A program made the translations under genes and the position numbers. From Planctomycetales bacterium 71-10 (lineage in GTDB: Bacteria > Planctomycetota > Planctomycetia > Isosphaerales > Isosphaeraceae), in contig MKTT01000075.1 of assembly GCA_001898385.1 (NCBI GenBank), positions 1 through 64,000 of the forward strand: 64,000 bases of DNA, written 5' to 3'. Positions 23,883 to 59,929 of the stretch are shown here, piece after piece. Position 1 is the first letter of the stretch; each line of letters begins with the position of its first letter. The notes beneath the pieces were generated by a model that worked only from the letters and a program-made list of their open reading frames with translations, searched no databases and had not been told where the DNA came from.

Positions 23883-24284
23883 ACGATTTGCTCCCGGCGG
23901 CAATGATGGGAAGACTCCCACAGGAATTGCGCGACCAGCAGAACGGCGAGAGGAACCGTCGGAACGACGGGCCCTGATCGAGCGACGGGTGAAGTGGACT
24001 TCACCGAGAAAAACCGGCCCCTGGGGGTTCCGGATGGCCTAAGACGGCCGATATTGAAAGTGCCCCCCGTAGGACTCGAACCTACAACCCGCTGATTAAG
24101 AGTCGGTGGACGAGTCTACGCAGGCGTCAGGGATTCGCGGATCGCGACGACCCGGACGTCCCTCCGTCACGCCCCGCCGATCCGGATCCGGATTCGGGGG
24201 GCGGCGGCCGGCGGATCGCCGCGGGCGCGCGCATGATCGCTCGGGGGGCGACGGACGCCCCCGCGACCCGAGGGAGCGACCATC
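23883..24284. other. Host-prophage junction region without genes
   Basis: This 402-base stretch holds host intergenic DNA to 24060, the left attachment repeat at 24061-24104, and about 180 bases of phage DNA before the integrase start. Frames here are shadows. Confidence 0.6.
24061..24104. repeat. attL, 44-bp tRNA-Lys 3' fragment
   Basis: These 44 bases are identical to 59886-59929 and correspond (minus strand) to the anticodon stem-loop through the 3' end of tRNA-Lys. The identity stops exactly at base 24105 and before 24061. The tRNA 5' half is missing here, so this copy is the remnant at the distal end of the integrated phage. Confidence 0.92.
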
Positions 24285-25232
24285 ATGACGCCCGTGCCGT
24301 TCGCCGAGTTCGAACGCCAGGTCCTCAAGCTGTACGACCCCGCCCTCCGCAAGCCCAACACCGCCAAGCAGGTCCGCCAGGTCCTGCGGGAATTCGGCGC
24401 GCTGCCGGCGGTGCAGACCACGGCCGACCTCGACCCGACCGCGATCGCCCACTGGATCGCGGCGCACCCCGAGCGATCCGCGGTGACGATCGAGTCGCTG
24501 CTCCGGGCGCTGGGGCCGCTGCTCAAGTTCGCGGTGTTCAAGGGGTGGCTGGACCGCTCGCCGCTGGAGTACCGGGGGCCGTCGCAGTGGGTCCGGCCCG
24601 ACGATCGGCCGGAGCCCAAGGCGCGGCCGGGGAGCCGGACGCTGGGCGAGGTGGGCCGGGTGCTGGAGCTGGCCGACGCCGAGGCCCGGGCGGGCGGCTG
24701 GGAGCGGAAGCGGCTGCGGGCCCTGGTGTACTGCTACGCGTACCTCGGGCTGCGCGGCGGCGAGGCGGTGCATCTCTGGCGGACGGACGTGGACCTGGCC
24801 GCCCGGACGGTCAAGGTGCAGGCCCACCGCGAGGACCGCTGGACGCCCAAGACTTTGCAGTCGGCGGCGATCCTGCCGATCGCCCGGCCGCTGGAGCCCG
24901 TGCTGAGGTACTGGCTGCGCCAGACCGGCTGTCGCTGGCTGTTCCCGGGGGTGCGGCGGCGCGGGCCCTGGACGGGCGGGGCCGCCGGCCAGTCGCCGCT
25001 CGACCAGGTGCGGGAGCTGGGGAAGCGGGCCGGCGTCCCGGACCTGACGATCCATTCGCTGCGCAAGACGGTCGGCACCTACGCCAAGACGTGGGGGCTC
25101 GGCCAGCTCGAGCTGAAGGGACTGCTCCGGCATTCGGACGTCGAGACCCAGGCGTGGTACGACGACGGCCCGGCCGAGGCGCTGCGGCCGGCGGTCTCGC
25201 GGGTGTCCTACCCGATGTCGCAGGCCGGCTGA
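24285..25232 (+). CDS. int: Tyrosine recombinase/integrase
   Basis: The 315-residue protein has an N-terminal SAM-like core-binding region (residues about 5-105) and a catalytic domain. The active-site Arg is in YLGLRGGEAVHLW, the His-x-x-Arg box is HSLRKTVGT, a second His is in LLRHSDVETQAWY and the nucleophile Tyr is in that last segment. It sits directly inside attL, as expected for the enzyme that recombines the phage into the tRNA-Lys gene. No excisionase is recognised beside it. A sigma-factor gene follows after 117 bases. Confidence 0.93.
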   Translation: MTPVPFAEFERQVLKLYDPALRKPNTAKQVRQVLREFGALPAVQTTADLDPTAIAHWIAAHPERSAVTIESLLRALGPLLKFAVFKGWLDRSPLEYRGPSQWVRPDDRPEPKARPGSRTLGEVGRVLELADAEARAGGWERKRLRALVYCYAYLGLRGGEAVHLWRTDVDLAARTVKVQAHREDRWTPKTLQSAAILPIARPLEPVLRYWLRQTGCRWLFPGVRRRGPWTGGAAGQSPLDQVRELGKRAGVPDLTIHSLRKTVGTYAKTWGLGQLELKGLLRHSDVETQAWYDDGPAEALRPAVSRVSYPMSQAG

Positions 25233-25349
25233 CGGCCGGGGGCCCCGCGGAGGCCCGCAGATCCGCCCCTGACGCGATCGCGGCCCCTCGGGCGGCTTCC
25301 CGGCCGGCCGGGGCCGCGGGCCGTTCCTGCGCGAAGGGAGGGCCCTCCC

Positions 25350-26087
25350 TTGCGGCGTAGCCCTTTCCCGGCCCGCCGGCCGCCGCGGCGGGTCGTCAAG
25401 GACGCGTTCCACGCGACGCTGGGCGCCGTCCCGCTCCTCACCGCCGAGGAGGAGGTCGAGCTGGCCCGGCGTCGCGACGCCGGCGACGGCGAGGCCCTCG
25501 ACCGGCTGATCGTCGCCAATCTCCGCTGGGCGGTCCGCGTGGCGACGCGGCACCGGCACGTCCACGGCGGCGACCAGGACGACCTGGAGCAGGCCGCGAT
25601 CGGCGGGCTGATGAGGGCGGCCCGGAAATTCGACCCGGACCGGGGTGTGAGGTTCAGCACCTACGCGACGTGGTGGATCCGCCAGGCCCTCGCCCGCCAC
25701 GCCGGCGAGGCCCGCCTCATCCACGTGCCCGAGAACCCGCAGGCCCGGGCGTCCGAGGAGGCGGCGAGGGCGAGGGCGATCGCCTCGATCGACGAGCCGA
25801 ACGAGCACGGGTCGACCCCGTCCGAGCTGCTGGCCGATCGCGGAGAGGCGCCGGAGGAGGCGATGCGGCGGGAAGAGGCCGCCGGCGTGCTGGCCGCCGC
25901 CGTGCGCCGGCTGGGCCCGCGCGACGCGGAGGTCCTGCGCCGCCGCTACGGCCTCCAGGGCGGCGAGCCCGAGACCCTCAAAGAGGTGGGCGACCGCCTC
26001 GGCCTGACGCGGGAGCGCGTCCGGCAGATCGAGAAGCGCGCGAGGGAGCGCCTGGCGAGGCTGCTGGCGCCCGCGGTCGCGAACTGA
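25350..26087 (+). CDS. Phage-encoded RNA polymerase sigma-70 factor (first of two)
   Basis: The 245-residue protein starts at TTG 25350, preceded by GGGAGGG 7 bases upstream. It lacks region 1.1. Region 2 is clear: LDRLIVANLRWAVRVATRHRH then DLEQAAIGGLMRAARKFDP and FSTYATWWIRQALARH. Region 4 has the helix-turn-helix LKEVGDRLGLTRERVRQIEKRARERL. It should redirect host RNA polymerase to phage promoters. It lies between the integrase and a protein with an alpha-CTD-like segment, in the rightward left-end operon. A second sigma factor is at 51361-52086. Confidence 0.92.
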   Translation: MRRSPFPARRPPRRVVKDAFHATLGAVPLLTAEEEVELARRRDAGDGEALDRLIVANLRWAVRVATRHRHVHGGDQDDLEQAAIGGLMRAARKFDPDRGVRFSTYATWWIRQALARHAGEARLIHVPENPQARASEEAARARAIASIDEPNEHGSTPSELLADRGEAPEEAMRREEAAGVLAAAVRRLGPRDAEVLRRRYGLQGGEPETLKEVGDRLGLTRERVRQIEKRARERLARLLAPAVAN

Positions 26088-26176
26088 CGCGGCCCGACGC
26101 CGGCGAAGGTCGCCGGGGCGGGCGTCGTGCGCGCCCCGGCCGTCCCCACCGACCCGAACGAGACCGGAGAGAGACC

Positions 26177-59631: not shown

Positions 59632-59738
59632 TCGAGCCCGTTTCCGACCGCGCCCCCGGTGCGCGCCGGGGGAGACCCGATCGGCCATGGACGGCCCTCT
59701 CGATTGCCACGAAGCGATGAAGAGAGAAACCGCCCGCG

Positions 59739-59760
59739 CGCCATTCCGGCAAGATCGTCG
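59739..59760 (+). repeat. 22-bp repeat, copy B
   Basis: Identical to 57892-57913. It lies in the 254-base stretch between the last phage gene and attR, which otherwise contains no gene. The similar trailing GAAGAGAG is also present, but the following short frame reads into the tRNA and is not convincing. Confidence 0.6.
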
Positions 59761-59885
59761 CGCGGGCGGTCGAAGAGAGACCAGAACCAATTCGACAGGA
59801 GCGAACCCATGCCGAGAATCGGCCCATGGCCCTGCCTGCTCGTGACTTGTGTAGAGTGTCCGGGACTCCCCTCGGACTCTCGTAA

Positions 59886-59929
59886 TGCCCCCCGTAGGAC
59901 TCGAACCTACAACCCGCTGATTAAGAGTC
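59886..59929. repeat. attR, 44-bp tRNA-Lys 3' sequence
   Basis: Exact copy of 24061-24104, here forming the 3' part of the intact tRNA-Lys. Together with attL it marks the prophage limits. Confidence 0.93.

Follow-up and report, generated by a model that had tools for sequence, protein, structure and literature searches.

An apparently intact planctomycete prophage in a tRNA-Lys gene, with a tail-fibre-related domain in its coat protein and a sigma factor divergent from a recombinase

We analysed a 64,000-nucleotide stretch of the genome of Planctomycetales bacterium 71-10 (the window; positions 1 to 64,000 of contig MKTT01000075.1) and found that positions 24061-59929 hold a prophage that appears intact. 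The explanation that best joins our observations, and that we consider probable, is an intact-looking temperate phage in a tRNA-Lys gene, with an HK97-fold coat that bears an inserted domain and a lysis-lysogeny switch built on a repressed sigma factor. To our knowledge, few temperate phages of planctomycetes have been described. The main interest of this one lies in two features: a coat protein whose growth is recorded stepwise in living relatives, with no insert, one, or two tandem copies, and a recurrent pairing of sigma factor and recombinase that suggests a lysis-lysogeny design unlike the CI/Cro-with-antitermination model. An earlier note on this DNA had described the element as a temperate siphovirus and had missed the coat insertion, both sigma factors and the second recombinase.

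Integration into tRNA-Lys

The element is bounded by a 44-bp direct repeat (TGCCCCCCGTAGGACTCGAACCTACAACCCGCTGATTAAGAGTC) that is exact at both ends (24061-24104 and 59886-59929), and it measures 35,825 bp from repeat start to repeat start. The left copy (attL) is a truncated duplicate of a tRNA-Lys 3′ end, and the right copy (attR) makes up the last 44 nt, at the 3′ end, of a minus-strand tRNA-Lys(CTT) (59886..59958) that is intact and recognized by both ARAGORN and Rfam. When 201 bp surrounding the left copy were searched against the 7.73-Mb assembly, the only two matches were the repeat copies themselves. When the flanks were joined (...24060 + 59886...), they aligned without a break through the tRNA 3′ end to the native tRNA-Lys flank of four congeners (G001-G004), and it is this uninterrupted alignment to an empty site that shows the boundaries to be real. 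On the right, an orthologue of the flanking gene (60151-60921) adjoins the tRNA in every one of the six genomes of the genus, among them that of the window. The left flank was dropped as a syntenic marker: gene 20812-22536 is not adjacent to tRNA-Lys in the congeners, so the empty site is visible in only about the first 100 bp on that side.

Because it lies beside attL, a 315-amino-acid (aa) tyrosine integrase (24285..25232, plus strand; PHROG 1, E 1.6e-28; PF00589, 1.1e-7; 43-46% to the integrases of relatives G149 and G150) is the likely integrating enzyme, and it would have inserted the phage into the 3′ end of tRNA-Lys(CTT) in such a way that the tRNA stayed whole. The repeats, the integrase and the site left empty in relatives, together with genes for a terminase large subunit (TerL), a portal and an HK97-fold coat, identify the element as the prophage of a temperate tailed phage (Caudoviricetes), and the earlier note's placing of such a phage between perfect repeats in a planctomycete tRNA-Lys gene is thereby upheld.

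This tRNA-Lys is a repeated integration site. At the same 3′ end, congener G005 carries an insertion of ~8.2 kb between near-identical ~45-bp copies of the tRNA-Lys 3′ end (G005:C3; L072, reverse complement, ~2147-10390), with open reading frames that we named by eye as an FHA protein, a kinase, a metalloprotease and an IS630-type transposase.

A tail-fibre-related domain in the coat protein

The major coat protein (378 aa; 41889..43025, minus strand; PHROG 283, 1.9e-16) is predicted to adopt the HK97 fold (AlphaFold2 model, predicted local distance difference test (pLDDT) score 74). A PHROG scan returned tail-fibre matches within it, at residues 235-314, and an alignment of relatives located a ~70-aa domain (here residues ~230-306; 42108..42338, minus strand) that is inserted at a single coat site in 0, 1 or 2 tandem copies. 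Among 33 full coats, 15 have no insert, 6 have one copy and 12 have two. In a tree of these 33 coats from which the insert was left out, two changes account for all copy numbers, which suggests that the insert was gained once and then duplicated once within the phage family. The two-copy clade is supported at 100/100; the group with any copy has 83/88, which makes a single origin likely without making it certain.

Profile searches with the insert point to a fibre domain, with matches to an F2-pyocin side fibre (E 1.8e-6) and a distal tail protein (E 2.9e-7). In these homologues (PDB 25ve and, for the distal tail protein gp20, 23gd) the domain is the N-terminal part of a tail component, whereas here it lies inside a coat. 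Modelled alone, the insert reached a pLDDT of 93.6, and its fold matches were fibre and tail-tip beta domains plus one chain from phage Bridgette; the best listed were a domain of the LKA1 tailspike (Z 9.7) and the 124-residue Bridgette chain (8eci; Z 8.2), and P22 coat chains were absent among the 50 matches listed, an outcome still compatible with that fold. On sequence grounds, the insert is related to a promiscuous beta domain of the attachment type that tail fibres use.

The model of the whole coat matched HK97-fold coats, best among them the P22 procapsid coat (Z 17.9), with 304 aligned residues compared with ~245-265 for most coats without an insertion domain (I-domain). The fold alignment spans both sides of the insert, in a model of moderate confidence, and the insert apparently sits at the site that corresponds to the P22 I-domain. 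P22-like coats (P22, Sf6, CUS-3) share the HK97 fold and, apparently, an extra beta domain at about the same place. However, the insert of P22 forms a Greek-key barrel with six strands, which was initially called telokin-like (PMC5701804), whereas the insert here is homologous in sequence to tail fibres, varies between 0 and 2 copies and accompanies a siphovirus-like tail module. One review raises the question whether auxiliary proteins gave rise to coat I-domains or arose from them (PMC5701804), and this becomes testable here because the source family of the insert can be traced by sequence.

The insert, presumably exposed on the shell surface, would probably replace or supplement a separate decoration protein, either by making the shell more stable or by offering a surface for binding. 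We regard as doubtful, though worth keeping in view, that it serves as a host- or surface-adhesion module and not as a stabilizer: among solved structures, those nearest to it in sequence and in fold are attachment domains of fibres and tail tips, but in the sequence relatives the domain is N-terminal, at the end by which a fibre usually docks, and one fold neighbour is the 124-residue chain of the Bridgette structure. Phage Bridgette is reported to have capsid cement proteins (PMC13033339), and this chain is presumably one of them.

A sigma factor divergent from a recombinase

The prophage encodes two sigma factors. Sigma factor 1 (245 aa; 25350..26087, plus strand) is RpoS/SigA-like, with regions 1.2, 2 and 4 (PHROG 351, 3.4e-50; PF04542, PF04545, PF00140), and sigma factor 2 (241 aa; 51361..52086, minus strand; PHROG 351, 1.9e-25; PF04542, PF04545) is the first gene of the late-strand block. 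Divergent from the latter is a small serine recombinase of 236 aa (52343..53053, plus strand), which has a resolvase catalytic domain (PF00239, 4.5e-34; PHROG 95/125). That this gene is one part of a split large serine integrase was rejected, since G152 and G156 have recombinases whose homology covers the same ~230 residues, and the frame that follows here is a helix-turn-helix (HTH) gene. This gene encodes an XRE/Cro-CI HTH protein (53037..53279, plus strand; PF01381, 2.4e-9) that is a candidate repressor, and it is followed by a candidate Arc-like regulator (53418..53708, plus strand; weak matches to PHROG 11411/582).

Across 13 near-complete or long members of the phage family, this one included, a sigma region-2 match exceeded the Pfam cut-off in 8, was weak only in 3 and was lacking in 2; two sigma factors occur in this phage, G150 and G168, the terminase-side sigma of G168 falling below the cut-off. 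In all eight phages with both sides visible (the window phage, G149, G150, G154, G155, G156, G168 and G176), the terminase-side sigma is divergent from a site-specific recombinase across a gap of at most 0.9 kb; the recombinase is of the serine type in two and of the tyrosine type in six, and these cases are not independent, given the relatedness of the phages. A serine recombinase also stands divergent before the terminase in G152, G020 and contig C54 of the host, with no sigma factor detected. Phage-encoded sigma factors, including those of temperate phages, are known from Wbeta and similar phages, where sporulation-like sigma factors are linked to host sporulation (PMC9429907); the present phage differs in having two, one of them ahead of the late genes.

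The 256-bp gap between sigma factor 2 and the recombinase (52087-52342) contains an operator- or crossover-like cluster of two exact 18-bp palindromes (CGTARCCNNNNGGYTACG) of the form CGTARCC-N4-GGYTACG, 47 bp apart (52238-52255 and 52285-52302). With up to two mismatches allowed, the pattern had two matches in 64 kb, both exact and both in the gap, and no exact match in 100 shuffles, a chance figure that is descriptive, the pattern having been derived from this gap. The gaps of G149, G155, G156 and G168 each hold one strong palindrome, differing in sequence, and that of G150 holds none. In G156, the palindrome has 14-bp arms around AC, and window positions 52249-52264 (GGCTACG-AC-CGTAGCC, again centred on AC) share with it the core ACGACCGT. 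A 14/16 copy of 52249-52264, GGTTGCGACCGTAGCC on the minus strand, lies in opposite orientation at 57642-57657, inside gene 57237-57680. In G149, a 31-bp dif-like palindrome (TTCCGAATACAATGTAGAATTGTATTCGGAA; L028, 2034-2064), with 13-bp arms around 5 bp, precedes the tyrosine recombinase, and an imperfect version is found in G155 (L032, near 903), whose recombinase is likewise of the tyrosine type. Gap palindromes of this kind fit operators and recombinase crossover sites alike.

We propose that a repressor, probably the XRE protein, would repress the divergent region through the two 18-bp palindromes, with sigma factor 2 as its main target. Once relieved, sigma factor 2 together with host RNA polymerase would switch on the minus-strand lysis, terminase, head and tail genes, a role in late transcription that we infer because of the gene order; repression of sigma factor 2 would then constitute the lysis-lysogeny switch.

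An unlikely alternative is that the gap contains a crossover site for the recombinase, serine here and tyrosine in relatives, and that recombination there either switches the sigma promoter or resolves dimers. Two recombinase types fill the same divergent position in eight phages, the palindromes of G156 (serine) and of G149 and G155 (tyrosine) have the geometry of crossover sites, and the window has both the core shared with G156 and an inverted second copy. Yet the palindromes suit dimeric repressors equally well, G149, G155, G156 and G168 yielded no second site, and the second copy in the window has two mismatches and sits within a gene. A bolder version, to which we give very little credence, has the recombinase-sigma pair run lysogeny itself: crossover in the gap would connect or disconnect the late sigma factor and its promoter, one event would set the late programme, and serine and tyrosine enzymes would have been swapped in for one another.

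Gene content and integrity of the prophage

The element has ~55 genes in our own gene models. Its virion genes lie along the minus strand between 47400 and 30923, beginning with a candidate terminase small subunit (TerS; 47014..47400, assigned by position and conserved in relatives), TerL (45630..47060; PHROG 2, 1.7e-20), the portal (43808..45379; PHROG 145, 1.3e-5; 35-50% to relatives), a scaffold candidate (43145..43804) and the coat. These are followed by two fibre-like proteins beside the coat (40098..41878; by position, composition and weak relatives, possibly head fibre or decoration proteins), a head-tail connector candidate (38569..39405; PHROG 5774, 1.6e-4, and relatives), a 446-aa protein of the morphogenesis module with a C-terminal HELGH motif resembling zincins or zinc proteases (37229..38569; from its translation and relatives), two candidates for head-tail or tail completion (35978..37039; from conserved order), the tail tube (35066..35956; PF18906, 2.9e-16), a 527-aa tape measure candidate (33458..35041) and an 840-aa protein resembling a tail hub or tip (30923..33445; by position and same-place homologues in relatives, with no sequence match in the PDB). 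Small local swaps aside, this order is kept by roughly twelve relatives with near-complete sequences, drawn from IMG/VR and from planctomycete genomes. The tail tube, the tape-measure-sized gene and the absence of a family match to a contractile sheath among the element's proteins, many of which match nothing, suggest siphovirus morphology.

Family matches support the integrase, terminase, portal, coat and tail tube named in the earlier note, and its statement that the genes are open stands: no stop interrupts integrase, TerL, portal, scaffold, coat, tube or tape measure, and the core packaging, head and tail genes are all open. Its scaffold and tape measure fare less firmly, the former having a match below the cut-off (PF06810, 6.5e-4) along with a fitting position and relatives, the latter having no family match and being assigned because it lies between tube and hub and has homologues in relatives. 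The note called most genes unassignable to families, and in our searches many had no family match. Its description of the phage as apparently complete holds for the virion module; lysis and replication genes are not identifiable by family.

Several observations weigh against the combined reading of an intact phage with an insert-bearing coat and a sigma-based switch. Family searches of the element's proteins identified no endolysin, holin or replicase. The correspondence to the P22 site comes from a coat model whose confidence is moderate (pLDDT 74), and the XRE repressor and the palindromes are paired by their position. Upstream of TerL, a sigma factor went undetected in about half of the loci with at least 5 kb of upstream sequence; vertical inheritance of the sigma factors within a single phage clade is unsupported, the tree being unresolved and the terminase-side sigmas not monophyletic. 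No sigma-70-type promoter was found before sigma factor 2, and the intergenic regions that we read had no obvious shared motif that could be a sigma-2 promoter.

That the element is a cryptic, non-inducible remnant, with open virion genes and lost replication or lysis functions, seems to us quite improbable. The unrecognized endolysin, holin and replication genes would agree with it, as would the weak coding score of the final open reading frame (58525-59631), but the core genes are all open, have lengths like those of relatives and keep their order, and the att repeats match perfectly along all 44 bp. Moreover, genes of the relatives likewise seldom match known families, and missing names therefore do not mean missing functions. 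A candidate lysis cassette of membrane proteins (48624..50847, minus strand), including a putative C39/papain-like peptidase (49714-50847, minus strand), is suggested by translation and by relatives G035 and G155; it had no family or PDB match.

A plus-strand block at 26177..29690 and the right arm at 53722..59631, with genes on both strands, lack a confident family match, and three small minus-strand genes past the tail hub (29663..30923) may, by their position, be fibre or tail-tip parts. Defence cargo was considered and rejected, as the single weak PADLOC match (PglZ, 56580-56990; E 7e-4 over 72 residues) was judged to be due to chance.

A planctomycetal phage family

The earlier note had proposed searching TerL, portal and coat against phage databases; in our searches, TerL reached at most ~29% identity to annotated phages and the coat had no match in 50,697 phage records. 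Counting the one in the window, IMG/VR contains 34 loci of this kind with a TerL; once the identical record is set aside, TerL there reaches up to 61%. Strong TerL matches (E < 1e-60) occurred in 10 of 148 related genomes, all of them in the host's own family and the host among them, and a phylum-wide sample yielded weaker matches only (best 3e-60). The phage family is planctomycetal, and the lineage appears to be an undescribed family of tailed phages. A cultured phage of a deep-sea planctomycete, Phage-ZRK32, differs by description in its size of 21.9 kb, its extrachromosomal state and its chronic release (PMC10945688).

The element itself is already in a public catalogue. IMG/VR uncultivated virus genome (UViG) 3300024988_000234 is the same provirus, 100% identical where compared and spanning window positions 24285-59631; unlike the element delimited here, it has been trimmed to its outermost genes and lacks the att sites and the tRNA. 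We rejected this 35,347-bp contig as evidence of an excised circle, since its ends coincide with the provirus's first and last genes, as expected of a trimmed provirus call.

Two further TerL homologues lie elsewhere in the host genome, at G000:C54:4552-5937 (36%) and G000:C55:19213-20646 (29%), each with a coat gene, and these loci are further prophages or remnants.
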